Part shown: one piece after another, positions 930-14,607 of the stretch
Numbering within the stretch: position 1 is the stretch's first letter
Layout: every line of letters begins with the position of its first letter
Assembly: GCA_947380375.1 (NCBI GenBank)
Contig: CANCQX010000006.1
Location: forward strand, 1-46,258
Length of the DNA: 46,258 nucleotides
Origin: Flavobacteriales bacterium
GTDB taxonomy: Bacteria; Bacteroidota; Bacteroidia; Flavobacteriales_D; Crocinitomicaceae
Direction: 5' to 3'
Program-made: the position numbers and the translations under genes
The notes under the pieces: generated by a model
What the model saw: only the letters and a program-made list of their open reading frames with translations
Databases searched by the model: none
Told to the model about the DNA's origin: nothing

Positions 930-1757
930 TTATATTATTGAAATAGAATCAGAGTTTAAACTAATTAATTTGTTTTTATATAGATTTCCAACAGCTTGTT
1001 TGAAAGTTTTTTTACTCATTCCTACTTGATCTCTGATGTCATCTGGATCACTTTTATCGGTAAGATACAAAACGCCTTTTCTGTTTTTAATTAAAGCTAA
1101 TAATCTTTCAGCTGAAGGTTCAATTTTTTGATATCCAGACTTTTCAAGTCGAACATCTAATTTACCATCTTCACGTATATTAAAAACAAAACCAATTTCT
1201 TTGTCACCTCTTCTTAGTTTACGAGTTAAGTCGCTGTGGTAAATTATACCCAAAAACTTACCATTAACAACAACTTTAACTCCTAAATCAAAAGTTTCAC
1301 AAATTAATAGTTCAACTTCTTTATTAATTTCAATTTCAGATATTTCTATTGAAAAACGTTTATTAGTTTTAGCAGTAGCTACTAATCTATCTGTGGAAGC
1401 ATCTAATAATAAGTAGATTAAGTAATACTTATCTTCTTCTAATTTATTAGTCTGCTCTCTGAATGGAACAAGAAGATCTTTTTCTAACCCCCAATCTAGG
1501 AAAGCTCCATAAGGAGTAACTTCTTTTACCCTTAAATACGCGAATTCATTTAAGGTTATAAAAGGTTGCTCTGTTGTTGCTACTAATCTATCTTCAGAAT
1601 CTTTGTATAAAAAAACATTAATATCTTGACCAACAGACATTTGTTGAGTCAAATATTTATTAGGTAATAAAACATCATTATCAAACTCATCTCCCAAATA
1701 AGCACCAACTGTTGTTATTCTAAGAATTGTTAGAACGTTATATTCACCTAATTTCAT
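930..1757 (-). CDS. S1 RNA-binding protein, CvfB family
   Basis: This is a 275-residue RNA-binding protein with tandem S1-like OB folds and a C-terminal winged helix, the CvfB/YitL architecture. Visible segments include the N-terminal TVGAYLGDE strand turn, the second S1 motif VTPYGAFLDWG near residues 80-90 followed by DLLVPF, and the winged-helix segment DDIRDQVGMSKKTFKQAVG near the end. In Staphylococcus CvfB is a pleiotropic virulence regulator; here a general post-transcriptional role is inferred. It starts 12 bases after the universal stress gene on the same strand, so the two are probably co-transcribed. Its length matches the family. Confidence 0.85.
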   Translation of the reverse strand: MKLGEYNVLTILRITTVGAYLGDEFDNDVLLPNKYLTQQMSVGQDINVFLYKDSEDRLVATTEQPFITLNEFAYLRVKEVTPYGAFLDWGLEKDLLVPFREQTNKLEEDKYYLIYLLLDASTDRLVATAKTNKRFSIEISEIEINKEVELLICETFDLGVKVVVNGKFLGIIYHSDLTRKLRRGDKEIGFVFNIREDGKLDVRLEKSGYQKIEPSAERLLALIKNRKGVLYLTDKSDPDDIRDQVGMSKKTFKQAVGNLYKNKLISLNSDSISII

Positions 1758-1769
1758 TATTATTTATTA

Positions 1770-2576
1770 TTAAAAAGAAAAAGTAGAATTAGCTTTAGAG
1801 TTAATTATAACACATGGCAAAAGCTCTTGATTAGTAATTAAATCTTGTGCGAAAGTATCAAATTGAGGAAGAATACTTGTTGAATGATAAGCTATAGCAA
1901 TTAAATCTATTTCTTTTTCAGTACAATAATTCATAATTTTCTTTTGATAAGAACCTTCATAAGGAAGTAACTCTATATTACACTTAACTTGTCTATCTTG
2001 ATATTGTTTACGTACAATAAGGATTCTATTTTTTATTTTTTGACTTAAATAAGGGTCTTCTCTTTTTTCGGCAACTAAAAAAACTTCAGCATCATAAATC
2101 TTACATAAATCACCTGCGATATCTACAATCTGAAGACTCTCTTTTTCGGAATCTATCGGAACTAATATTCTACGAACTGCTTTAACTTTTGTGTCTTGTT
2201 GAATAACGAAAAATGGAACATCAGAACTTGTGATTACCTTCATAGCATGACTTCCGAATACTTTCTGAAACCCTTTTGCTCCATGTGTACCCATTATAAT
2301 CAAGTTAACTTTCTCTTCCTTTACAATTTTAGCAATGTCTTCAAATATACTTCCAACTTTTACTATCCCTGTAATTTCTGTATTTTCAGTTTTTACAGTT
2401 TTTGAAATTATATCATTTAACTTTTGAGTTGCGTTTGTTAACTCTTTTTTATCTGAAACAAGATGAACAAGTTTTATTTCATTAATAAGATTACTACTCA
2501 AGTTAACTGCGTAATTTAAAGCAGCTTCACCAACAGAAGTGAAATCGTGTAATACTAAATAGATATTTTTATTCAT
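1770..2576 (-). CDS. Universal stress protein, tandem UspA domains
   Basis: This is a 268-residue cytoplasmic protein with two UspA folds in tandem (about 1-125 and 130-268). The first has the nucleotide-binding loop MGTHGAKGFQKVFGSH, close to the ATP-binding G-2x-G-9x-G(S/T) pattern but with 8 residues before the last glycine. The second domain lacks that loop and is probably degenerate. These proteins are induced under starvation, oxidative and other stress; the ligand here is unknown. It leads a two-gene operon with the CvfB-like gene, and a TATATTTG -7 box lies just upstream at 2596-2603. Confidence 0.9.
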   Translation of the reverse strand: MNKNIYLVLHDFTSVGEAALNYAVNLSSNLINEIKLVHLVSDKKELTNATQKLNDIISKTVKTENTEITGIVKVGSIFEDIAKIVKEEKVNLIIMGTHGAKGFQKVFGSHAMKVITSSDVPFFVIQQDTKVKAVRRILVPIDSEKESLQIVDIAGDLCKIYDAEVFLVAEKREDPYLSQKIKNRILIVRKQYQDRQVKCNIELLPYEGSYQKKIMNYCTEKEIDLIAIAYHSTSILPQFDTFAQDLITNQELLPCVIINSKANSTFSF

Positions 2577-2595
2577 TTTGTAAAGTTTTATTTGT

Positions 2596-2603
2596 CAAAT
2601 ATA
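2596..2603 (-). promoter_or_regulatory. Bacteroidota -7 element upstream of the universal stress gene
   Basis: On the minus strand the box reads TATATTTG, an exact match to TAnnTTTG, 19 bases before the ATG at 2576. I see no clear TTG at the -33 distance, so only the -7 half is supported. Confidence 0.5.
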
Positions 2604-2688
2604 AGCATAATGTCTATTGTTGGCGGTTGTTTTTTTTAACAATCCTATTGTTAAAACATTAGAATGTAACAATTAATGATTTAAATCA

Positions 2689-3804
2689 TCATTTATTTGA
2701 TTTATTATCTCGTTTTTGGCGTCTATTTATTTCACTATAGGGATATGTTGAATAAGTATCAGGTTTTAACTCTTTCTTTCTCAATGAAAAAAAGCTTCCT
2801 TTTAGTTTGTCTTTTGAGTTTTCATTTAAATTTTCTACCCCATCAGGAGTTCTTGCAATATGTTGAGAGCTTCCAGCAGCAGCATTCTTATCACTAGGGT
2901 CTATCCATTTATCTTTAATTTCTCGACTTTCTAATTCTCCTGTGTTTTCATTCTGAACGAAAATCTTTATTTTTTCACTTCCTTTTGCATTAACACCTGC
3001 TACATCTTCTTCTAAAACCCATTTATCTTTTACTAAAAAAAATGCATCATAAGTAAAATCAGGGACGTAGTATGAATAAAAACCAGTCATACTAGGTGTT
3101 TCTGGAGATAAGTGATCGTAAATTATTCGCGTGAAATTTTCTTCATATTTGAGTGACATATATGCTTTTTCAGAATGCTCAAAAAACACTCTTTTTAATG
3201 TTTCTGTTTTTGTTTTAAATATAGGGCTTCCAAGTTTTGGAATATTCCCGTTAAATGACAAGACATCTATTAATTTAATATTACTCATAGTGGAGTTTAA
3301 ATCCAATCCTAAAAGTGTATACATTTGCTTATTACCTTTTGATATAGGAATTATTTTATAATACAAGGCACCATACCAATCTTTGGCTTCTAAAACACCA
3401 TCAGGTTTAGGAGTTAGCATAAAAGAATTGTCAATTAATTCACTTACTAGATATTCTTTTTTACGTTCGTCAAATCTTAAGATTAGACAATAATATTTTT
3501 GAGAAGCATCATCTTGTTCAATATTCCAATTAAATAATCTTATTTTTTTATCATTACTAGAAACAGAGCCAAGCGTTATCAATTTAGAAAATGGATAATT
3601 CATTGCGTTTTTTAATTGAATTGCTTCAAGTAATGATTCTCTAAATAATTTGTTTTTTATTTCCTTTTCAGAATTTTTTGATGCTGAACGTAAATCACTT
3701 AATAATTTTACTAAATAATCTTCTTTTTTAATTAATATAGAATCTTCTTGAGCAAAATAATTGCCCAAAAAGAAAATAGTCGCTAAAAAGAAAATAGTCT
3801 TCAT
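2689..3804 (-). CDS. Secreted protein of unknown function
   Basis: This 371-residue protein starts with a signal peptide (MKTIFFLATIFFLGNYFAQ). I recognise no domain. The middle (about 60-290) is rich in beta-forming, aromatic segments with several Tyr/Trp pairs, such as DWYGALYYK, consistent with an extracytoplasmic beta fold. The last ~80 residues are charged and low in complexity, and it ends in a Lys/Arg/Asn-rich tail. No T9SS C-terminal sorting domain is evident. It stands alone between the stress operon and rpe. The coding call rests on length, signal peptide and composition. Confidence 0.75.
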   Translation of the reverse strand: MKTIFFLATIFFLGNYFAQEDSILIKKEDYLVKLLSDLRSASKNSEKEIKNKLFRESLLEAIQLKNAMNYPFSKLITLGSVSSNDKKIRLFNWNIEQDDASQKYYCLILRFDERKKEYLVSELIDNSFMLTPKPDGVLEAKDWYGALYYKIIPISKGNKQMYTLLGLDLNSTMSNIKLIDVLSFNGNIPKLGSPIFKTKTETLKRVFFEHSEKAYMSLKYEENFTRIIYDHLSPETPSMTGFYSYYVPDFTYDAFFLVKDKWVLEEDVAGVNAKGSEKIKIFVQNENTGELESREIKDKWIDPSDKNAAAGSSQHIARTPDGVENLNENSKDKLKGSFFSLRKKELKPDTYSTYPYSEINRRQKRDNKSNK

Positions 3805-3855
3805 ATTTTCATTAACGTTAAAATATATTATTTGTTATTATTTTTAATAAAAAGT

Positions 3856-4509
3856 TTATTTAATAGCTTTTAATTTTGAAATTGTTTCTTGTGGATTTTC
3901 AGAATTAAACACAAAACTACCTGCTACAAGCACATCAGTTCCAGCATTTAATAACTCAATAGCCGTTTCCAAATTTACACCACCATCAACTTCAATTAAT
4001 GTTTTAGTGTTTTTTTCTAAAATCATTTTTTTAACTTGTAAGACTTTAGAAATAGTGTTTTTAATAAATTTTTGTCCACCATATCCTGGGTTTACAGACA
4101 TTATCAAAACTAAATCTAAATCTTCAATAATGTCTTCTAATAAACTAACTGGAGTGTGAGGGTTTATTGCTACACCAGCTTTCATTCCTGACTCTTTTAT
4201 TAATTGGATCGTCCTGTGAAGATGTATACAAGCCTCATAATGAACAGTTAGTATGTCGGCTCCAACTTTTTTAAATTCTAAAATATATTTATCAGGATTT
4301 GATATCATTAAATGAACATCTAAAGGTTTTGTAGCATGTTTTTTAATAGCTTCAATAACGGGGAATCCAAATGAAATATTGGGGACAAATATACCATCCA
4401 TTACGTCGACATGAAACCAATCTGCAGTGGAAGTATTAATCATTTCAACATCGCGTTGAATATTTGCAAAATCACATGACAGAACTGAAGGAGAAATTAA
4501 ATGATCCAT
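3856..4509 (-). CDS. rpe: Ribulose-phosphate 3-epimerase
   Basis: This enzyme interconverts D-ribulose 5-phosphate and D-xylulose 5-phosphate in the pentose phosphate pathway. It is a 217-residue TIM barrel. The hallmark opening is SPSVLSCDF; the metal and catalytic residues sit in WFHVDVMDG, PLDVHLMIS and IEVDGGVN, and the phosphate-gripping loop is MSVNPGYGGQKF. I chose the ATG at 4509 rather than an upstream codon at 4548 because MDHLISPSVLSCDF is the family N terminus and a promoter box lies at 4536-4543. A second, fused RPE-like barrel is present at 9148, so this is the housekeeping copy. Confidence 0.96.
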   Translation of the reverse strand: MDHLISPSVLSCDFANIQRDVEMINTSTADWFHVDVMDGIFVPNISFGFPVIEAIKKHATKPLDVHLMISNPDKYILEFKKVGADILTVHYEACIHLHRTIQLIKESGMKAGVAINPHTPVSLLEDIIEDLDLVLIMSVNPGYGGQKFIKNTISKVLQVKKMILEKNTKTLIEVDGGVNLETAIELLNAGTDVLVAGSFVFNSENPQETISKLKAIK

Positions 4510-4535
4510 TTTTTTAATTTTAATAAGAATACATG

Positions 4536-4564
4536 CAAATATAATCAATAGAAGTTTTAATCAA
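4536..4564 (-). promoter_or_regulatory. Promoter of rpe
   Basis: On the minus strand there is a TTG at 4564-4562, an 18-base spacer, then TATATTTG at 4543-4536, matching the Bacteroidota sigma factor consensus. The box ends 26 bases before the chosen ATG. It overlaps the start of the longer reading frame, which supports the shorter protein. Confidence 0.6.
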
Positions 4565-4612
4565 TAAAGCATATCGTAAACTTTATAAGTAATTAATGGA
4601 TCAAGTCTAAAA

Positions 4613-4649
4613 AAAAAGTAAAAAAAAAGTTGAATAATTAAATTCAACT
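4613..4649 (-). terminator. Intrinsic terminator of tRNA-His
   Basis: The 8-bp stem AGTTGAAT (4628-4635) pairs with ATTCAACT (4642-4649) around a 6-base loop. On the minus strand it is followed by a long T run (complement of the A run 4613-4628). It lies a few bases past the tRNA 3' end. The opposite side also carries six Ts. Confidence 0.75.
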
Positions 4650-4655
4650 TTTTTG

Positions 4656-4730
4656 GGAGGCTAGTGGGGATCGAACCCACGACCTTCGGTACCACAAACC
4701 GACGCTCTAACCGACTGAGCTATAGCCTCC
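4656..4730 (-). tRNA. tRNA-His (anticodon GTG)
   Basis: The minus strand folds into a full cloverleaf. The anticodon loop TTGTGGT gives anticodon GTG, and the T arm is GTGGG-TTCGATC-CCCAC. The acceptor stem has eight pairs because an extra 5' G (position -1) faces C73, the identity signature of histidine tRNA. CCA is not encoded. It has its own upstream promoter and downstream terminator, so it is a single-tRNA transcription unit. Confidence 0.97.
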
Positions 4731-4741
4731 GTATTCGATTG

Positions 4742-4774
4742 CAAATATATATATATAAATTGTTTTTAACGCAA
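4742..4774 (-). promoter_or_regulatory. Promoter of tRNA-His
   Basis: On the minus strand TTG (4774-4772) is followed after 22 bases by TATATTTG (4749-4742), 11 bases before the tRNA 5' end. Spacing and sequence fit the Bacteroidota -33/-7 pattern. Confidence 0.7.
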
Positions 4775-4968: not shown

Positions 4969-5898
4969 ATGCTAAAAATAGGTGTGTTAGGAGCTAGTAA
5001 TTTAGCAAAAGATCATATTAGGATTCTTTTAGAACTAAAAAGTCAATTTGAATTGATTGGCTTTTATGATCCTTGTGATAAATCAGCAGAGGAGTTAATA
5101 GAATCTTTTTCAATTAAAAGATTTTCAATGTATGAGGAGCTTTTAGAGAAGGTAGATTGTATTGATATTGTATCGCCAACAATTAAACATTATGAATTTG
5201 CCTCAATTGCCTTAAGGAAAAGTAAACATATTTTTATTGAAAAACCTTTAACACAGACAATTGACGAAGCTAAATCATTAATAAGTTTATCGAGAGAAGC
5301 TAGTGTAAAAGTTCAAATAGGATCTATTGAAAGATTTAATCCAGCCTTTTTAAAAAGCATTGATTTCTTGAAGAGACCTATGTACATTGAAACTCATAGG
5401 TTAAATCATTACAGTACGCATGTCAATGATATCTCGGTCGTTATGGATTTAATGATGAATGATATCGATGTCATTTTGAGTGTCGTTAAATCGGGTATAA
5501 GAAAAGTTTCAGCTTCAGGTGCTTCGGTATTTAGTGATGCGTTTGACATTGTTAGCGCTAGAATTGAATTTGATAATGGTTGTGTTGCGAGTTTAACAGC
5601 CAGCAGAGTAGCGCAACAAAAAAAATGTGAAACGAGTTTTTTTCAAAAAGAGTCTATTGTAAATGTAAATTTTTTGTCAAATGAAATTGAAGTTGTTTGT
5701 TCAGATAATATTAATTTAGAATTAACTAGAAAATTAATTTCAGAAAGACCTGTTATTACTGATACGAATCCTAAATTAGAAGAATTTAAATCATTTCACG
5801 ATTCAATCATTAAAGATTTGGATCCAATTGTTTCATTATCAAACGGTTATGAATCTCTATGTTTAGCTCATCAAATTGTTGATTTATTAGTAATTTGA
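4969..5898 (+). CDS. Gfo/Idh/MocA family NAD(P)-dependent oxidoreductase
   Basis: This 309-residue sugar or cyclitol dehydrogenase-type enzyme has an N-terminal Rossmann fold (KIGVLGASNLAKDH, residues 3-16), the family signature EKPLT (about 101-105) and a C-terminal alpha/beta domain. The segment MDLMMNDIDVI, carrying the usual catalytic-domain His/Asp-type motif, resembles oxidoreductases linked to nucleotide-sugar or lipid A precursor oxidation, but that does not fix the substrate. It precedes a lipoprotein and a glycosylphosphotransferase on the same strand, so a role in surface-sugar synthesis is inferred. The family is certain; the substrate is unknown. Confidence 0.88.
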   Translation: MLKIGVLGASNLAKDHIRILLELKSQFELIGFYDPCDKSAEELIESFSIKRFSMYEELLEKVDCIDIVSPTIKHYEFASIALRKSKHIFIEKPLTQTIDEAKSLISLSREASVKVQIGSIERFNPAFLKSIDFLKRPMYIETHRLNHYSTHVNDISVVMDLMMNDIDVILSVVKSGIRKVSASGASVFSDAFDIVSARIEFDNGCVASLTASRVAQQKKCETSFFQKESIVNVNFLSNEIEVVCSDNINLELTRKLISERPVITDTNPKLEEFKSFHDSIIKDLDPIVSLSNGYESLCLAHQIVDLLVI

Positions 5899-5958
5899 AC
5901 ATAAACTAGTCAAAGCAATAATTATAACATTTAAACGTTGATTTCTTATTCAAACATT

Positions 5959-6822
5959 ATGAAGTTTTTATTTTTAATCTTTTTATATAGCATATTTCTT
6001 TCATCATGTGTCAAGAACAATCCAGATCCTGCTTGGATTGAAGTGAATAAATGGACTTTGGAATCGAATCCAAATGCTATGTATGAAGAGGGAGAATTAT
6101 CACAAAATATAACTGATGCTTGTGTTTTTGTAGACGAAAAAATGATGGGTATTTTTGAAGTCCCTTTTAAAATACCTGTTCTTAAAAGTGGAGGAGTTAA
6201 TATTAAAATTTACCCAGTAATTCGAAACAACGGAATTTCGGCTTCTAAAAAAATATATCCTTTCTTGTCCTATCACCAAATAAATACAGATATTATTCAA
6301 AATAAAACCCTTACAATCAATCCGAAAACACATTATAATTCTAATGTTAAATTTTGGATTGAAGATTTTGAAGACGCAACGATAAAAATTGAAAATGATC
6401 CTATTTCTAAAGTTCAAATTCACTCTGGAGATGATCCTGCAGTTTTGAAATACGGGAATTTTTATGGTCGAGTAACTTTGAATGCTTCTGATTCATTATG
6501 GTTCGGGTATACCAATGGACATTTGTTATTGCCTAAGGGAGGAAAAGAAGTTTATTTAGAAATAGATTATTATAATACAAATAGTTTGACGACTGGATTA
6601 ATTGCTGAAACATCATTAGATTCTAAAAATAATATAAATATACAATTGAATAAACAGGATATTTCTACCATTCAATGGAAAAAAATATATATCGATTTAA
6701 AAGAGTTGGTTTCTTATTCTGCTTCTGCAGAATATTTTGAAATTTCTTTTCAAGCACTTTACGAAGCAGGTCTTCCTCAAACTGATATTTATTTAGATAA
6801 TATAAAACTTGTCTATAATTAA
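5959..6822 (+). CDS. Lipoprotein of unknown function
   Basis: This 287-residue protein has a lipoprotein signal: a hydrophobic stretch, then FLSSC with the lipidated Cys at residue 17. I chose the ATG at 5959 because the upstream TTG at 5938 would push the signal away from the N terminus. The body is beta-rich, with a C-terminal half (from about 120) that reads like a jelly-roll or carbohydrate-binding sandwich: repeated WFGYTNGH, EVYLEIDYYN and TDIYLDNIKL segments, the last typical of the final strand of such folds. Its stop lies 4 bases before the next ATG, so it is co-transcribed with the glycosylphosphotransferase. The glycan link is inferred. Confidence 0.8.
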   Translation: MKFLFLIFLYSIFLSSCVKNNPDPAWIEVNKWTLESNPNAMYEEGELSQNITDACVFVDEKMMGIFEVPFKIPVLKSGGVNIKIYPVIRNNGISASKKIYPFLSYHQINTDIIQNKTLTINPKTHYNSNVKFWIEDFEDATIKIENDPISKVQIHSGDDPAVLKYGNFYGRVTLNASDSLWFGYTNGHLLLPKGGKEVYLEIDYYNTNSLTTGLIAETSLDSKNNINIQLNKQDISTIQWKKIYIDLKELVSYSASAEYFEISFQALYEAGLPQTDIYLDNIKLVYN

Positions 6823-8231: not shown

Positions 8232-9056
8232 TTATATTTGAAAAAATCCATTAGTAATATCACATACTTTTTGAAGATGTTCTGGCATTTCAGATTCGTT
8301 CCATGGCTGAGTTGAACCAAATGTGTGTTCTGCATCTTCGATTTCAAATAATCTTGTTTTTAGCCAATTAGCAATATTTCTACCTTCTTCTATATCTACA
8401 GAAGTATCTAAATCACCATGAATAACTAGAGTTCTTTTAGTAGAGTTTAAACAAGCTTGTTCTATGTTTAAATCCTCTCTATTTTCTGTGAAATTTTCAT
8501 ATTGAGAATAATTATTTGGCATTTTTTGTTCAGTTCTACCATTTACAACATATCTTTTCCCTTGGGTTTTCCAAACTTTTAACTGTGTTCCTTCTGGAAA
8601 TCTTTTTTCGATATCACATATTGCTGCCCACGTAGCAATTTTTTTAACTCTATTATCTTTCGATGAAAGTAGGGCAATTCCTCCACCTCTTGAGTGACCG
8701 ATTAAATAAATCTCTGGTAACGACAAAAGTTGAGTTTCTATCCAATTTAAAACATGTTGGAGATCGTTAACTTCTTTAGAGTAATTATTTTCGCCGAATG
8801 CTTCAATATCATTAAAATCAATAGGGTTTTCAATCGTGCCACCATTATGTGTCATATTGAATTTAGAAAAACCATAACCTAATTCTGTAAAATAGTTTTC
8901 AACCAAATTCCAACATCCCCAATCTTTATAACCCATATATCCGTGAATGAAAACTATCAGTTTATCGTTGAAGTTTTTTGGAATAACTAGATCTACTAAA
9001 CTTTTTCTATTATTTGACCCAACAAATAGTTGATTTTTTAAATTCAATGTTTCCAT
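8232..9056 (-). CDS. Alpha/beta hydrolase (serine hydrolase)
   Basis: This 274-residue cytoplasmic alpha/beta hydrolase has the oxyanion-hole motif IHGYMGYKDWG (about 37-47), the nucleophile elbow IGHSRGGG, a late Asp in IHGDLDTSVD, and the catalytic His in AEHTFG. This is the dienelactone hydrolase/BAAT-like esterase group; the substrate is unknown. It converges with the sugar transferase (10-base gap) and is divergent from the RPE-CBS operon across a 91-base gap. Confidence 0.88.
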   Translation of the reverse strand: METLNLKNQLFVGSNNRKSLVDLVIPKNFNDKLIVFIHGYMGYKDWGCWNLVENYFTELGYGFSKFNMTHNGGTIENPIDFNDIEAFGENNYSKEVNDLQHVLNWIETQLLSLPEIYLIGHSRGGGIALLSSKDNRVKKIATWAAICDIEKRFPEGTQLKVWKTQGKRYVVNGRTEQKMPNNYSQYENFTENREDLNIEQACLNSTKRTLVIHGDLDTSVDIEEGRNIANWLKTRLFEIEDAEHTFGSTQPWNESEMPEHLQKVCDITNGFFQI

Positions 9057-9147: not shown

Positions 9148-10152
9148 ATGAAAATTTCAGCTTCTATATATAGTGATAAAAAAAGACCTTTACAAGTTGT
9201 AATTGACGATTTGGTTCAACATCAAGTTGAATTACTTCATGTTGATTGTAATGATGATTTATCTGTTTTTGAGGATATTAAAAATATTCGTAAATGGTGT
9301 GATTTACCAATTGATCTTCATGTTATTACAAATGATCCTGAAAAATATTTTGATTTATTAAGGTCCAATCCTGTTGAATACATAACTTTTCAGTACGAAG
9401 ATTTAAAATCACCTTTAAATATCCCTTCTGATATAACTGGAAAAAAAGGATTAGCAATTATTACACCAACTCTAGTTTCTGTTTTTGATACCTATTCAAA
9501 TTTTGATTTTATTTTAATAATGGCTACTATTCCTGGTCAAAGTGGCGGAATGTTTGATGCAGTTAATTTTTCAAAAATCAGACAATTTAGAAGTCAATTT
9601 CCTGAGAAATCGATTCATGTTGATGGTGGTGTGAATGGTGAAGTTTCCTTTATTTTAAGAAATATGGGGGTCAGTTCATCTGTTTCGGGATCTTACTTAT
9701 TTAATGCTCCAAGTATTGGACATGCATTAATGAATTTAACAAAACGAGAAGTCGAATCAGAATTTAAAATAAAAGATTTTATGATTCCTTTTGAGGAATG
9801 TCCGATTGTTAATGAAAATGATTTATCTATCCAATCCATTTTAGAGACAATTGAAACTGGAAATATGGGGTTTTGTCTAGTTGTAAATGAAGATAATGTA
9901 TTTAAAGGGTTGATTTCTAATGCAGATGTTCGGAAAGGCATGTTGAAGAATTTAAATGATTTAAATAAAATAAAAGGGGGTGATTTAATTAATAAAACAC
10001 CAAAAAGTATAAATGAAAATGACACTGTTTTTTCAATGCTAAAATTGATTAAAAACTGCTCATTTCCAATAATGTATCTTCCTGTGTTAGATAATAACGG
10101 AAAATCTTCAGGAATTGTTAATTTTGTAAATCTGATTAAAGCAGAACTATGA
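9148..10152 (+). CDS. RPE-like TIM barrel fused to a CBS domain pair
   Basis: This 334-residue fusion has a ribulose-phosphate 3-epimerase-like barrel at 1-205. It keeps the four metal/catalytic positions: His31 and Asp33 (LLHVDCND), His58 (IDLHVIT) and Asp159 (IHVDGGVN). The phosphate loop is altered to MATIPGQSGGMF. Residues about 208-334 form two CBS motifs (DFMIPFEECPIVNENDLS...GLISNADVRKGM and DLINKTPKSINENDT...IVNFVNLI), which usually bind adenine nucleotides and gate activity. The stop overlaps the DAHP synthase ATG (ATGA), so translation is coupled. CBS pairs normally sit on KdsD, another Ru5P enzyme. Epimerase activity on an unknown sugar phosphate is inferred; the domain calls are solid. 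Confidence 0.88.
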   Translation: MKISASIYSDKKRPLQVVIDDLVQHQVELLHVDCNDDLSVFEDIKNIRKWCDLPIDLHVITNDPEKYFDLLRSNPVEYITFQYEDLKSPLNIPSDITGKKGLAIITPTLVSVFDTYSNFDFILIMATIPGQSGGMFDAVNFSKIRQFRSQFPEKSIHVDGGVNGEVSFILRNMGVSSSVSGSYLFNAPSIGHALMNLTKREVESEFKIKDFMIPFEECPIVNENDLSIQSILETIETGNMGFCLVVNEDNVFKGLISNADVRKGMLKNLNDLNKIKGGDLINKTPKSINENDTVFSMLKLIKNCSFPIMYLPVLDNNGKSSGIVNFVNLIKAEL

Positions 10153-11147
10153 TAATCCATTTAAAAGACCAAATTTCAGCTATAGAAGCTGGTAAAATAG
10201 CAATTGAAAATCAAGCATTTCACATTGTTTACAATAACAAAAATGTTTTGATTACAGGATCAGGATTGAAAGAAATTCCTTTAGAATTAGAGAGTAAGGT
10301 AGATCAATTTTGGGTTTTCCCGAATGACATGCAATTATCATCTAAAAAATATCAAACTGAAAAGAGAGAAGTTCAAATCGGAAAAATTAAAATTGGTGGT
10401 ACTACAAATAACACTGTTTTAATTGGAGGTCCTTGTTCGGTTGAGTCTGAGGAACAAATTCGTGAATCTTCAGAATTATTAGTTTCTTTAGGGTTAAGTA
10501 CTTTAAGAGGAGGTTGTTATAAACCTAGAACAAGTCCTTACAGTTTTCAAGGGATGGAGTTGGAAGGTTTAAAATTGCTTTCTAAAATGAGGGGTGAGTA
10601 TGGCTTAAATGTTATTACTGAAGTTCGAGATGCTACTCAAATAGATGAAATTATTGAATATTCGGATGTTATTCAAGTTGGAGCGAAAGCGATGTATGAT
10701 CAGGGTATTTTACGTGCTTGTGCGAAAACAAATAAACCAATTTTGATTAAAAGAGGTTTTGGGTCAACATTACAAGAATTTGTTCAAGCAGCTGAATTTG
10801 TTTTATCAGGAGGTAATGAAAATGTTATTTTATGCGAAAGAGGTTTAAGAACTTTTGAAACAGGTACACGTTTTACATTGGATTTATGTGGAGTAGCTTG
10901 GTTACAAGAGTATACTAATTTACCGATAATTTTAGATCCAAGTCATGCAATGGGTTACGCTTATGGTGTTCCAAGTTTGGCTAGAGCATGTGTTGCAATG
11001 GGAATTGACGGTTTATTAATTGAAGCTCATCCAAATCCGAAAGTTGCAAAATCTGATGCTTCTCAACAATTAAATCATGCTGAATTTACAGCACTTCTTG
11101 AAACACTTCGACCAGTCGCTGAGAGCGTAGGTTATAAAATGATTTAA
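10149..11147 (+). CDS. aroF: 3-deoxy-7-phosphoheptulonate (DAHP) synthase, type I-beta
   Basis: By family this enzyme condenses phosphoenolpyruvate with erythrose 4-phosphate, the first step of the shikimate pathway. The 332-residue protein has an ~80-residue N-terminal regulatory-type segment and a barrel with GPCSVES (95-100, metal-binding Cys96), KPRTSPYSFQG (125-135), KRG (201-203), CERGLRTFE (229-237), DPSHAMG (263-269, His266) and EAHPNP (292-297). KPRT separates DAHP synthases from KDO8P synthases, which carry KANRS/T. No chorismate mutase domain is attached. It overlaps the RPE-CBS gene by 4 bases and precedes a KdsC-like phosphatase, an unusual partner, so it may serve a branch other than bulk aromatic synthesis. 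Confidence 0.9.
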   Translation: MIIHLKDQISAIEAGKIAIENQAFHIVYNNKNVLITGSGLKEIPLELESKVDQFWVFPNDMQLSSKKYQTEKREVQIGKIKIGGTTNNTVLIGGPCSVESEEQIRESSELLVSLGLSTLRGGCYKPRTSPYSFQGMELEGLKLLSKMRGEYGLNVITEVRDATQIDEIIEYSDVIQVGAKAMYDQGILRACAKTNKPILIKRGFGSTLQEFVQAAEFVLSGGNENVILCERGLRTFETGTRFTLDLCGVAWLQEYTNLPIILDPSHAMGYAYGVPSLARACVAMGIDGLLIEAHPNPKVAKSDASQQLNHAEFTALLETLRPVAESVGYKMI

Positions 11148-11180
11148 TTAAAAATTGAAAAAGAAAGTTATATAATAAGT

Positions 11181-11861
11181 ATGTTTTTAGAACAAAATAT
11201 TAAAGGTATTTGTGAAAAATACGGTGTCGATTTTTCTGATTTTTTAGGTGATTTGAATGTGGAAAATGCTTTAGAATTGTCTATTTTCGACCTAGAAGCA
11301 ATTTGCGATGAGAATAAAATAGATTTACATTCTTTATTATTTAAGCCAATGTTTAAAACAAACATTTGGAAAGCTAAAATTGCTAAAATTAAACTACTTG
11401 TCCTAGATGTTGACGGAGTAATGACAGATGGGGGAATGTATTTTACTGAAAACGGAGATCAGGTTAAAAAATACAATACCAAAGATGGAATGGCCATTAT
11501 TCATCTGACTAAAAAAAACTTTCAAGTTGCAATAATTTCTTCAGGTTTTACTGATAATATGGTAAAAAAGAGAGCTGAAATGTTGGGTATTCAAAACTGT
11601 TATGTTGGCAGAGATAACAAAATGGGTATTTTAAAACAATATTGTACAGATTTAAATATAGATCTAGAAAATGTTGCAATAATAGGTGATGACATTAATG
11701 ATTTAGAAATGATTAAAAATGTTGGTTTTTCAGCTAGTCCTTCTGATGGAATGGATGTAGTTAAAACAAATGTTGATATTATTTTAAGCAAAAAAGGGGG
11801 GGAAGGTTGTGTTAGAGAATTTATTGATTCATATCTTCTTGATAAACCATTAGAAAATTAA
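11181..11861 (+). CDS. KdsC-like HAD phosphatase with N-terminal extension
   Basis: This 226-residue phosphatase is of the C0 HAD (KdsC) type. Motif I LDVDGVMTDG carries Asp76 and Asp78; NGDQVKKYNTKDGMAI (91-106) is the KdsC substrate loop; the motif II region is IISSG; a conserved Lys147 follows; motif IV is GDDINDLEM (Asp170/171). KdsC hydrolyses KDO 8-phosphate and forms tetramers. The first ~55 residues are extra: a helical segment ending in LEAICDENKIDLHSLLF that resembles the end of an XRE-type helix-turn-helix but lacks a full one. It lies 33 bases after the DAHP synthase and 21 before the next gene. The true substrate (KDO8P, DAHP or another keto acid phosphate) is uncertain. Confidence 0.88.
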   Translation: MFLEQNIKGICEKYGVDFSDFLGDLNVENALELSIFDLEAICDENKIDLHSLLFKPMFKTNIWKAKIAKIKLLVLDVDGVMTDGGMYFTENGDQVKKYNTKDGMAIIHLTKKNFQVAIISSGFTDNMVKKRAEMLGIQNCYVGRDNKMGILKQYCTDLNIDLENVAIIGDDINDLEMIKNVGFSASPSDGMDVVKTNVDIILSKKGGEGCVREFIDSYLLDKPLEN

Positions 11862-11882
11862 CTGAAAAATATTAAAATACAG

Positions 11883-13112
11883 ATGAAAAAGATCAAGATT
11901 GGAATAGTAAGAGAAGGAAAAGTTCCGCCCGATAAACGTGTTCCACTTTCTCCAAAACAATGTAAGATTGTTCAGTTAAAATTTCCAAATGTTGAAGTAA
12001 TTGTTCAACCAAGTCCTATTCGATCTTTTTCTGATGATGAATATTTAGCTGAAGGAATACTACTAAACGAAGATTTGACAAATTGTGATATATTACTTGG
12101 TGTTAAAGAGGTTAATATAAGCGATTTAATTCCAGGAAAAAAATTTCTATTCTTTTCTCATACTATTAAAAAACAATCTTACAATAGAGCTTTACTACTA
12201 GCAATTTTAGAGAAGAAGATTCAATTAATTGATTATGAAGCTTTAAAAGATATTAATAACAAGCGAATCATCGGTTTTGGAAGGTATGCCGGAATTGTTG
12301 GTTGTTACAATGGTTTTAGAACTTTTGGGTTGAAACATAAATTGTATTCACTAAAAGAAGCTAATAAATGTGCAAATAGAGAAGAAGTTGAAAAAGAACT
12401 TAAAAAAGTAATTTTACCTTCAACAACAAAGATAGTTTTAACTGGATTTGGTAGAGTAGGGCATGGAGCTAGGGAGATTTTAGATTTACTTCCTATAACG
12501 GAAGTTTCACCTGAAGAATTTTTAAATCAAACATTCAAAACAGCTGTTTATTCGCAACTTGAAGTAGAAGACTATTATGGCAAAAAAGATGGATCAGAAT
12601 TCGATAAAAAAGAATTCTATTCTAATCCTGAAAAATTCAAGTCAACTTTTTCTAGATATTCTAAAATAGCTGATATGTATATTCCATGTCATTTTTGGAA
12701 CAATTCCTCACCTTACATTTTGACTAAAGAAGATTTAAAATCACCTGAATGTAAATTAACAGTTGTTGCTGATATTTCTTGTGATATAAACGAGCCAATT
12801 GCTTGTACTATTCGACCGAGTAAAATATCAGATCCAATATATGGATACAATGCAATTACTGAATCAGAAGATGATTTTTTAAAAGAGGGAGTTATCGCTG
12901 TAATGGCTGTAGATAATTTACCTTGTGAATTACCATTAGATGCTTCTCAAGATTTTGGAAATGAATTGATTAAAAATATATTACCTGCTCTTTTACTTGA
13001 AGATCCTGATGATATAATTGGAAGGGGAAGTGAAACTAATTTACAAGGAACATTGAATCCTCGTTTTGAATATTTAAGTGATTATGTAAATGGTGTAGTT
13101 GTTAAAAATTAG
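11883..13112 (+). CDS. Saccharopine/alanine dehydrogenase-like NAD(P) oxidoreductase
   Basis: This 409-residue enzyme belongs to the alanine dehydrogenase/PNT fold (Lys1-type saccharopine dehydrogenase group). The N-terminal domain opens with IGIVREGKVPPDKRVPLSP, the family lysine/arginine signature, and contains the KEV and FFSHTIKKQ segments. The Rossmann domain has VLTGFGRVGHGAREIL near residue 190, and the late VAVDNLPCELP segment is typical of the Lys1-like branch. These enzymes form or split the bond between an amino acid and a keto acid. In this operon an amination or reduction of a keto-acid product would fit, but that is inference. Its gaps to neighbours are 21 and 8 bases. Confidence 0.85.
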   Translation: MKKIKIGIVREGKVPPDKRVPLSPKQCKIVQLKFPNVEVIVQPSPIRSFSDDEYLAEGILLNEDLTNCDILLGVKEVNISDLIPGKKFLFFSHTIKKQSYNRALLLAILEKKIQLIDYEALKDINNKRIIGFGRYAGIVGCYNGFRTFGLKHKLYSLKEANKCANREEVEKELKKVILPSTTKIVLTGFGRVGHGAREILDLLPITEVSPEEFLNQTFKTAVYSQLEVEDYYGKKDGSEFDKKEFYSNPEKFKSTFSRYSKIADMYIPCHFWNNSSPYILTKEDLKSPECKLTVVADISCDINEPIACTIRPSKISDPIYGYNAITESEDDFLKEGVIAVMAVDNLPCELPLDASQDFGNELIKNILPALLLEDPDDIIGRGSETNLQGTLNPRFEYLSDYVNGVVVKN

Positions 13113-13120
13113 GCTGTAAA

Positions 13121-14485
13121 ATGGAATCAAAAAAAATAGTAAAAGGAAATAAGAAGACTATTCGTGGTTGGATCTTTTACGATTGGGCAAATTCTGTTTA
13201 TAATTTAGTTGTTTCTTCAGCAATTTTCCCTATTTTTTATGACACAATTACAAAACAGCGTTACGCAAAACAACTTGGGATTAACGTGGAAGACTTGAAA
13301 GAAGGTCAAACCATTTTAGTAGATTTTTTTGGCAGTAAACTTTCTTCATCCGTTTTATTTTCCTTTGTATTAGCCTCTTCCTTTTTGGTTGTAGCTTGTT
13401 TATCTCCTTTATTGTCTGGTGTTGCTGATTATACAGGGAGCAAAAAAAAGTTTTTAAAATTCTTTTGTTATTTGGGTTCAATATCTTGCATGACTTTATT
13501 TTGGTTTAATGATTTACCTATAGAATTAGGTATGTTCTCCGTTTTTTTAGCGAGCATAGGTTTTTGGAATAGTTTAGTTTTTTACAATGCATTTCTTCCT
13601 GAAATTGCTGAAATTGAAGATCATGATAAAATTTCAGCTAAAGGATTTATCATGGGTTATTTCGGGTCAATGTTATTATTGGTTCTTTGTTTGATTTGGA
13701 TGCAAGTACTTCATCAGCCTGCTAAATATTGTTTTTTATTTGTAGGTTTTTGGTGGATTGGATTTAGTCAAATAACCTATAAAGCTTTACCAAATAATGT
13801 TTACAGTAAAAAACCAAAAGTAGATAATATTTTATGGCGAGGTTTTAAAGAATTGAAATTAGTTTTTCAAGAGTTTAAAAAAACATACAGATTGAAACGT
13901 TTTTTAATCTCATTTTTCTTTTTTAATACGGGGGTTCAAACAGTAATGTTGATGGCTACAATTTTTGCGAATAAAGAAATTTCATGGCCCGAAGGAAGTG
14001 GTAATTCAGGATTAATAATTGCAATTCTATTAATACAAATAGTAGGAGCTGCTGGTGCTTTTATGATGTCTAGATTATCTGAAAAAATTGGAAATATTAA
14101 GACGTTGATTCTATCTGTAACAATTTGGGTTGGAATTTGTTTTATTGCTTATTTTGTTAAAACGCCCTTTCAATTTTATTTTTTAGCCTCAATGGTTGGC
14201 TTAGTTATGGGGGGAGTTCAAGCGATGGCACGTTCTACTTATTCAAAATTTCTCCCTGAAAACACATCAGATCATGCAAGTTATTTTTCATTTTATGATG
14301 TAACTGAAAAGTTAGGTATTGTTTTAGGTTTATTATTTTTTGGACTAATGGAGATGGTAACAGGTTCGATTCGATTTTCAATTATTTCAGTCGCTTTCTT
14401 TTTTATAGTAGGTTTAATTCTATTATTTTTCGTTCCAAAAGAAGAAGTGGAAGTTAAATTACACGAAGATTATATTCCTAAATAA
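13121..14485 (+). CDS. MFS transporter, UMF1 (Atg22-like) family
   Basis: This 454-residue inner-membrane permease has about 12 membrane segments. The N terminus IRGWIFYDWANSVYNLVVSS is the UMF1/Atg22-like hallmark, and LSPLLSGVADYTGSKKKFL is the MFS loop 2-3 signature. The substrate is unknown; Atg22 in yeast exports amino acids from the vacuole. It follows the saccharopine-dehydrogenase-like gene by 8 bases, so it may move a precursor or product of this pathway. Confidence 0.92.
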   Translation: MESKKIVKGNKKTIRGWIFYDWANSVYNLVVSSAIFPIFYDTITKQRYAKQLGINVEDLKEGQTILVDFFGSKLSSSVLFSFVLASSFLVVACLSPLLSGVADYTGSKKKFLKFFCYLGSISCMTLFWFNDLPIELGMFSVFLASIGFWNSLVFYNAFLPEIAEIEDHDKISAKGFIMGYFGSMLLLVLCLIWMQVLHQPAKYCFLFVGFWWIGFSQITYKALPNNVYSKKPKVDNILWRGFKELKLVFQEFKKTYRLKRFLISFFFFNTGVQTVMLMATIFANKEISWPEGSGNSGLIIAILLIQIVGAAGAFMMSRLSEKIGNIKTLILSVTIWVGICFIAYFVKTPFQFYFLASMVGLVMGGVQAMARSTYSKFLPENTSDHASYFSFYDVTEKLGIVLGLLFFGLMEMVTGSIRFSIISVAFFFIVGLILLFFVPKEEVEVKLHEDYIPK

Positions 14486-14487
14486 CG

Positions 14488-14607
14488 TTGAAAAAGTTAT
14501 TTGATTTAATTGTAGAAAAAACAAATGGTAGAATTACATACCATTTAATTGTCTATTTCCTAATGGTGTTATTAATTTCAATAGCTTGTTTAATTTTCCT
14601 TCATTAA
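14488..14607 (+). CDS. Possible 39-residue small membrane protein with TTG start
   Basis: Two bases after the MFS stop, a TTG opens a frame reading (M)KKLFDLIVEKTNG, then a hydrophobic stretch (about residues 20-38, YHLIVYFLMVLL onward), and stops at 14605-14607. There is no in-frame ATG before the membrane segment and an in-frame stop at 14479-14481, so TTG is the only good start. The charged head plus a single membrane helix and the tight coupling favour a real gene. No family is recognised. The alternative is a chance open frame. Confidence 0.4.
   Translation: MKKLFDLIVEKTNGRITYHLIVYFLMVLLISIACLIFLH

Follow-up and report, generated by a model that had tools for sequence, protein, structure and literature searches.

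An RPE-CBS fusion and a DAHP synthase paralogue as probable replacements of KdsD and KdsA in a Flavobacteriales bacterium and its relatives

How can an operon follow the logic of 3-deoxy-D-manno-octulosonate (Kdo) synthesis when the first two enzymes of that pathway appear to have been exchanged for members of other families? This question is raised by a stretch of 46,258 nucleotides from a Flavobacteriales bacterium (contig CANCQX010000006.1, the whole of which is referred to here as the window), in which a ribulose-phosphate 3-epimerase (RPE)-type barrel fused to a CBS pair (RPE-CBS) is followed by a paralogue of the 3-deoxy-D-arabino-heptulosonate 7-phosphate (DAHP) synthase family (DAHPS-X) and a KdsC-like HAD phosphatase, and then by a Lys1-like dehydrogenase, an MFS transporter and a small open reading frame (ORF). 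Kdo is the sugar that anchors outer-membrane lipopolysaccharide, its synthesis is a textbook step in the making of the Gram-negative envelope, and KdsA counts as one of its standard enzymes and as a drug target. The canonical pathway and the operon are alike in logic and in their likely end product, with a CBS pair on the first enzyme, a barrel that condenses phosphoenolpyruvate (PEP) second, a KdsC-family phosphatase third, and KdsB and WaaA kept; they differ in that the first enzyme is a SIS protein and the second KdsA in the former, as opposed to an RPE barrel and a DAHP-synthase-family protein in the latter. An earlier prediction, made from the DNA letters alone, had described such a pathway with exchanged parts, and the order and spacing that it gave for six features are confirmed by ORF coordinates and domain matches (Table 1), with intergenic gaps of -4, 33, 21 and 8 bases from RPE-CBS to the MFS gene.

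If the operon stands in for the canonical enzymes, are these missing from the genome? The source genome (96% complete, 202 contigs) yielded no KdsA, the only matches to the KdsA model (TIGR01362, cut-off 314 bits) being DAHPS-X, at about 126 bits (125.9-126.6), and a DAHPS-type protein fused to chorismate mutase, at 52.2 bits. Nor was a SIS-type KdsD found there: the KdsD model (TIGR00393, cut-off 203.7 bits) gave two matches, of 49.2 and 30.3 bits, one of them the CBS part of RPE-CBS and the other in a 494-aa frame. The genome does hold kdsB and waaA, as well as the second DAHPS-type gene just mentioned and another member of the KdsC family, 173 aa long. The search for kdsA and kdsD elsewhere in the genome that the original prediction had proposed thus found neither, and a further DAHP synthase and a further KdsC, about which it had also asked, are both present. 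An ordinary rpe gene also lies in the window, so that RPE-CBS is an extra paralogue.

The same pattern was found in relatives. Among 149 genomes screened (RPE-CBS at E<=1e-30, KdsA over the family cut-off), RPE-CBS occurs in 89 and KdsA in 53, and none has both; two further KdsA fragments stand at contig ends (G099, G126), and five genomes have neither system (G026, G075, G079, G094 and G104, the first three 73-82% complete). A SIS-type KdsD at E<=1e-45 was detected in 0 of the 89 RPE-CBS genomes versus 51 of the remaining 60, while kdsB scored over its cut-off in 84 of the 89 and waaA was matched in 87. A sample of 396 genomes drawn evenly from the class (taken as Bacteroidia), each at least 90% complete and screened at E<=1e-40 for RPE-CBS and E<=1e-60 for KdsA, gave 74 genomes with RPE-CBS, 308 with KdsA, 14 with neither and none with both, against an overlap of 57.6 genomes expected by chance. 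Over the two screens combined, none of 529 genomes carries RPE-CBS together with KdsA. Seven of the 74 matches are weak (six from family f15, and G298); Pfam did not recognise the CBS part in the two f15 proteins scanned, DAHPS-X and the KdsC-like gene adjoin the barrel in four f15 genomes (L278-L281), and the G298 locus (L282) has DAHPS-X. Upstream of the barrel in two of these f15 loci (L278, L279) is an ORF that by eye resembles the heptose kinase HldE/RfaE.

Could this exclusion be a single old split, inherited ever since? Both states occur within 14 families (f1, f3, f8, f10, f17, f23, f28, f31, f34, f38, f39, f44, f47 and f71) and within four genera (g18, g74, g77 and g80), as counted by eye from tables and with the RPE-CBS of f38 cut by a contig end, which argues that it is not. 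Since the presence of RPE-CBS and DAHPS-X goes with the lack of KdsD and KdsA, and no genome combined RPE-CBS with KdsA, we read the pair as a functional replacement of KdsD and KdsA, and we hold this with high confidence. The idea of Kdo-pathway logic with exchanged parts is in this respect upheld, both by the gene content of the source genome and by the exclusion across genomes.

How much of the operon belongs to the replacement was addressed by counting neighbours of 158 distinct RPE-CBS genes, 152 of which have at least 700 bases downstream, with a distance limit of 300 bases. A DAHPS gene follows within this limit in 149 of the 152 loci, and 111 of 117 loci that allow a judgement have a KdsC-like gene next, an order beyond what chance would give; in G022, RPE-CBS lies 11 kb away from a DAHPS-KdsC pair (L068). 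The Lys1-like gene comes next in 67 of 90 loci, all of them in the home family (f1, taken as Crocinitomicaceae; 67/78, as opposed to 0/12 elsewhere), with the MFS gene following in 52 of these 67. The conserved unit is therefore one of three genes, not six: RPE-CBS, DAHPS-X and the KdsC-like gene form the core, and the Lys1-like and MFS genes are accessory. Of the gene order listed in the original prediction, the part formed by the first three genes is conserved in relatives and the six-gene unit is not. Likewise, the small ORF, proposed as a membrane protein of the operon, found a match in only one of 85 loci searched (L084, 26 aa) and is not counted as part of it. In plasmid records, rpe-type matches occurred in 67, none covering 80% of RPE-CBS, and the 20 rows listed are annotated as rpe.

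Table 1. Coordinates of features in the window and at loci of other genomes (L numbers), with supporting matches.
Sequence	Feature	Coordinates	Strand	Matches and remarks
Window	RPE-CBS	9148..10152	+	PF00834 E 1.9e-20; PF00571 E 8.2e-10
Window	DAHPS-X (DAHP-synthase-family paralogue)	10149..11147	+	PF00793; NF006421 356.7 bits (cut-off 335); TIGR01361 315.8 bits (cut-off 267.75)
Window	KdsC-like HAD phosphatase	11181..11861	+	TIGR01670 (KdsC) 146.3 bits (cut-off 106.95)
Window	Lys1/LKR-like dehydrogenase (AlaDh_PNT_N)	11883..13112	+	PF05222 E 1.8e-16
Window	ATG22-type MFS transporter	13121..14485	+	PF11700 E 5.4e-73
Window	Small ORF, ~39 aa	14488-14607		TTG start; 2 bases past MFS gene
Window	Divergent alpha/beta hydrolase	8232..9056	-	PF00561
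Window	Ordinary ribulose-phosphate 3-epimerase	3856..4548	-	PF00834 E 5.2e-78
Window	Extension of KdsC-like protein	11181-11360		
L048	KdsC-like protein with extension	6079-6750		
L057	KdsC-like protein with extension	9160-9834		
L044	DAHPS-X in KdsA genome	6919-7911		
L045	DAHPS-X in KdsA genome	8633-9622		
L047	DAHPS-X in KdsA genome	7016-8011		
L048	DAHPS-X in KdsA genome	6752-7747		
L044	Hydrolase relative	3918-4733	-	E 2e-80
L298	Transaldolase-CBS	2715-3728	-	
L299	Transaldolase-CBS	3763-4773	-	
L300	Transaldolase-CBS	2570-3577	+	
L301	Transaldolase-CBS	1565-2572	+	
L300	Lys1-like gene	5392-6000	+	
L304	SIS protein of G027	3557-4174	-	

What kind of protein is RPE-CBS? The barrel spans about residues 1-198 and the CBS pair about 205-334; the predicted structure (mean predicted local distance difference test score, pLDDT, 84.9) matches RPE over the barrel at Z 20.8, and the Pfam scan found PF00834 and no SIS domain. 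The KdsD model TIGR00393 matches residues 207-325 only, i.e. the CBS part, at 29.9 bits. Among 54 PDB sequences, the best match to a profile of the CBS part was 4o9k (E 1.2e-11), the CBS pair of a putative KdsD, which we take to have been solved with CMP-Kdo, and in a structure comparison the KdsD pairs 3fna, 3k2v and 4o9k were among the top rows at Z ~15. Judged by sequence, KdsD has the CBS pair most like this one, so that the predicted union of a KdsD-like CBS pair with an RPE barrel is borne out. The barrel itself shares the RPE fold and H31, D33, H58 and D159, presumably the metal and acid-base residues of the epimerase, which are invariant in all eight aligned sequences, ordinary RPE included. 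Yet RPE-CBS is 31% identical to the RPE of the same genome and falls short of the RPE family cut-off (TIGR01163, 68.6 versus 212.6 bits), its loop after D33 (the DGxFVPN loop) is six residues shorter, and other active-site segments differ in the alignment as well. The shortened loop suggests that the substrate has probably changed.

DAHPS-X, in turn, passes the cut-offs of the DAHP synthase families and keeps the GPCS cysteine of type I-beta enzymes (e.g. PDB 1vs1). As opposed to these (PRK08673/TIGR01361), it occurs with RPE-CBS where KdsA is missing and forms a separate clade: the operon rows group together, well separated from the DAHP synthases that relatives contributed (six rows; a branch of 3.81 on either side), in a tree with unsettled bootstrap in which one operon row (L070), whose RPE-CBS is on another contig, was labelled otherwise. 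The two also differ in the acceptor segment, where GARNxQNF of the DAHP synthases is GAK(A/S)MYD in DAHPS-X; K180, M182 and Y183 are present in 47 of 47 DAHPS-X and D184 in 46 of 47, as opposed to R, S/T/A, Q and N in the DAHP synthases (other residues in 6/6) and F, C, R and Q in KdsA. The beta7-alpha7 segment reads GxxYG. In a study of the Neisseria KDO8P synthase, Pro110, Phe112 and Leu113 are described as lining the arabinose-5-phosphate pocket (PMC6650799), and a motif reading suggests that these residues fall in the acceptor segment of DAHPS-X.

If the first two enzymes were exchanged, did the later ones change with them? Trees built from rows picked from relatives, 41 for KdsB and 20 for WaaA, each require four changes of label between operon and KdsA genomes. 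Operon genomes from f3 and f8 are nested within groups of KdsA genomes, and conversely two KdsA genomes, G047 and G060 (L053 and L054, genus g18), nest among operon-bearing members of the home family, their exact place within it being unresolved in the KdsB tree. In these two a SIS-KdsA pair replaces the operon, and the KdsB and WaaA of the family lineage are kept, 61-64% and 55-62% identical, respectively, to those of operon-bearing members of the genus. KdsB and WaaA have thus been inherited vertically through at least four switches. In KdsB, N-x-QGDEP, F-x-R and H-x-G-x-Y are among the residues that do not vary across 20 operon genomes and 20 KdsA genomes; they are parts of motifs named as nucleotide- and substrate-binding in PMC7717453. 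Among the 40 sequences compared, no invariant site that might tell Kdo from an analogue differs between the two groups. The vertical descent and the invariant motifs together argue that the products of both routes go to the same KdsB and WaaA.

In light of these results, we propose that the trio is a route to Kdo for lipopolysaccharide, independent of KdsD and KdsA, with arabinose 5-phosphate and Kdo 8-phosphate (Kdo8P) as intermediates; on balance we regard this as probable. RPE-CBS would form D-arabinose 5-phosphate by epimerase-type enediolate chemistry, either from ribose 5-phosphate by 2-epimerisation or from ribulose 5-phosphate, and its CBS pair of the KdsD kind would sense the end product of the pathway. 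DAHPS-X, with its changed acceptor pocket, would join this product to PEP to give Kdo8P, from which, judging by homology, the KdsC-like protein or the second KdsC of the genome may remove the phosphate. Ordinary KdsB and WaaA, whose genes are present and whose function we assign by homology, would then serve to activate the sugar and link it to lipid A. No earlier description of such a system was found in the literature searched, which was mostly without subscription papers.

Several observations weigh against this proposal. To our knowledge, no enzyme of the RPE fold forms arabinose 5-phosphate, and no lipopolysaccharide chemistry for these species was found in the literature. Capnocytophaga canimorsus and Bizionia argentinensis, two Flavobacteriaceae with reported Kdo chemistry, were dropped as evidence, since the titles of 80 loci point mostly to Crocinitomicaceae and other Flavobacteriales. 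By structure, the CBS pairs of KdsD tie with other CBS pairs. DAHPS-X keeps KPRTSPYSFQG as in true DAHP synthases and has neither the KANRS-type loop nor the long beta7-alpha7 loop of KdsA. Seven positions of KdsB lean by group (22, 102, 141, 198 and 227-229); as most operon rows are of one family, these probably reflect descent. In six of 117 loci no KdsC-like gene is found within 300 bases of DAHPS-X; in two of the six it lies at a distance of 0.6-1.6 kb. One operon genome, G027, gave the best SIS match among the 89, a protein of 205 residues at E 3e-26. Furthermore, DAHPS-X coexists with KdsA in four genomes (L044, L045, L047 and L048), overlapping it by four bases in L045, so that its function need not be identical everywhere. 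These copies fall within the operon clade; the branches of L044 and L045 are long (1.81 and 2.16, as opposed to 0.65 and 0.77 for the other two and a median of 0.3), and the placement of such very long rows is unsure. Long branches are what would be expected if KdsA had taken over the job of DAHPS-X, and to that extent they favour the proposal; the L044 and L045 copies have possibly been released from that job or acquired a new function.

The SIS protein of G027 is located between nucleotidyltransferase-like and glycosyl- or surface-sugar-like genes and is possibly an unrelated sugar isomerase.

Could the acceptor be shorter by one carbon? The retained KPRTS segment, the main argument in the sequence for this, together with the missing KANRS and long beta7-alpha7 loops, makes a four-carbon acceptor conceivable. 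In such a scheme RPE-CBS, with its epimerase residues intact, would act on erythrose 4-phosphate, equivalent to ribulose 5-phosphate minus C1, and epimerise it to threose 4-phosphate, DAHPS-X would make 3-deoxy-D-lyxo-heptulosonate 7-phosphate, and the KdsC-like protein would dephosphorylate it to a seven-carbon analogue accepted as Kdo by ordinary KdsB and WaaA. An unchanged KdsB site is compatible with this analogue, as its ring part would equal that of Kdo. However, the two g18 genomes, which have an ordinary SIS-KdsA pair, lie within a group of operon carriers whose KdsB and WaaA are of the same lineage, the CBS part has its best match in a KdsD, and the acceptor segment of DAHPS-X is unlike that of DAHP synthases. 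The seven-carbon keto-acid route of the original prediction is accordingly kept as a rival that we think unlikely, and is not the best reading. If it were true, an undescribed inner-core lipopolysaccharide sugar would be present in about one-fifth (74/396) of the sampled genomes of the class.

Alternatively, the replacement may be real and its first step different, with DAHPS-X acting on another pentose phosphate, or RPE-CBS acting elsewhere, e.g. only in regulation or channelling, and Kdo or an epimer as product. The substrates in our scheme are inferred only, and the shortened loop after D33 would fit such a change. Nevertheless, the lack of a SIS-type KdsD in every RPE-CBS genome of the relatives screen and the near-constant adjacency of RPE-CBS to DAHPS-X point to a catalytic supply role for RPE-CBS, and we consider this alternative distinctly improbable. 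Finally, the notion that a second DAHP synthase and a phosphatase serve an MFS-exported shikimate-derived, amino or nine-carbon metabolite, the exclusion of KdsA being an accident of descent, has in its favour that DAHPS-X passes the DAHP synthase cut-offs and that Lys1-like and MFS genes often follow in the home family, but it is already largely contradicted by the absence of any genome with both systems, by the occurrence of both states within families and genera, by the trio standing without a Lys1-like neighbour in all 12 non-home loci and by the separate DAHPS-chorismate mutase of the shikimate pathway, and we give it very little credence.

The individual proposals behind this last idea fare no better. 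The Lys1-like and MFS genes were rejected as pathway parts, and with them the predicted reductive amination and export, on the ground that the Lys1-like gene adjoins the trio in none of the 12 loci beyond the home family. The Lys1-like protein is of LKR-like length, its nearest solved structure being 8e8t (E 9.8e-40, aligned over residues 7-372). A nine-carbon (KDN) route was likewise rejected: KDN synthases belong to the NeuB family, and the KdsC-like protein matches the KDN-9-phosphate phosphatase family NF058599 only below threshold (155.4 bits, cut-off 180). A rewired shikimate feed was not borne out either, as the genome has its DAHPS-chorismate mutase gene followed by an ORF that resembles aroA (by eye, no scan).

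The KdsC-like protein scores over the KdsC cut-off, has 4hgr, 4hgq and 3e81 as its nearest solved structures, and carries an N-terminal extension of ~60 residues. This extension, in the window as well as in L048 and L057, resembles an XRE-type helix-turn-helix; HTH_3 was detected in the L048 protein at 23.1 bits (cut-off 23) and went undetected in the L057 and window copies. Shorter copies without the extension occur, e.g. in L055, L056, L283 and L294.

The divergent hydrolase upstream of the operon is found no further than 1.5 kb from RPE-CBS in 89 of 124 home-family loci, 3 of 41 class-wide and 0 of 4 others (duplicate loci included). A relative of it flanks a cluster of SIS, KdsA, KdsB and DAHPS-X genes in L044, a KdsA genome of f3, and this shared neighbour ties the operon to the SIS-KdsA-KdsB cluster. 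Its rarity near the trio beyond the home family, a further point against our proposal, makes it a supporting detail.

RPE-CBS may not be the only substitute for KdsD. In four KdsA genomes (G091, G093, G139 and G143) that have no SIS-type KdsD at E<=1e-45, a transaldolase/FSA barrel is fused to a CBS pair. In G093 (L298) this gene directly adjoins KdsA and a HAD gene, and 4o9k is matched by its CBS part too (E 3.2e-11). G104 lacks a clear KdsA, and all that was found there is a CBS fragment, at a contig end beside a similar HAD gene. Transaldolase-CBS resembles RPE-CBS in that it joins a barrel to a CBS pair and occurs where SIS-KdsD at E<=1e-45 is lacking, and differs from it in standing with ordinary KdsA and in belonging to an aldolase rather than an epimerase family. 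FsaA, an E. coli aldolase of the transaldolase/FSA family, forms arabinose 5-phosphate from glycolaldehyde and glyceraldehyde 3-phosphate, according to PMC9947464. That a KdsD-like CBS pair is carried by SIS, RPE and transaldolase barrels alike suggests that their common job is to supply arabinose 5-phosphate, and transaldolase-CBS is a possible third supplier. Downstream of transaldolase-CBS in G139, at a distance of 1.8 kb, a Lys1-like gene begins, much as one lies near RPE-CBS in the window; the likeness may be chance.

Taken together, these findings suggest a second and so far undescribed way of carrying out a core step in envelope assembly. If our proposal is true, 74 of the 396 sampled genomes of the class use another enzyme pair for Kdo, and annotation of these genes as epimerase and DAHP synthase would wrongly suggest that Kdo synthesis has a gap and that aromatic synthesis has an enzyme to spare. 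A route to arabinose 5-phosphate through an enzyme of the epimerase fold would then be known, and perhaps another through the aldolase fold, and the same kind of CBS sensor would be seen to sit on three barrels unrelated to each other. The presence of both states within single genera offers a natural experiment on the replacement of a core pathway.

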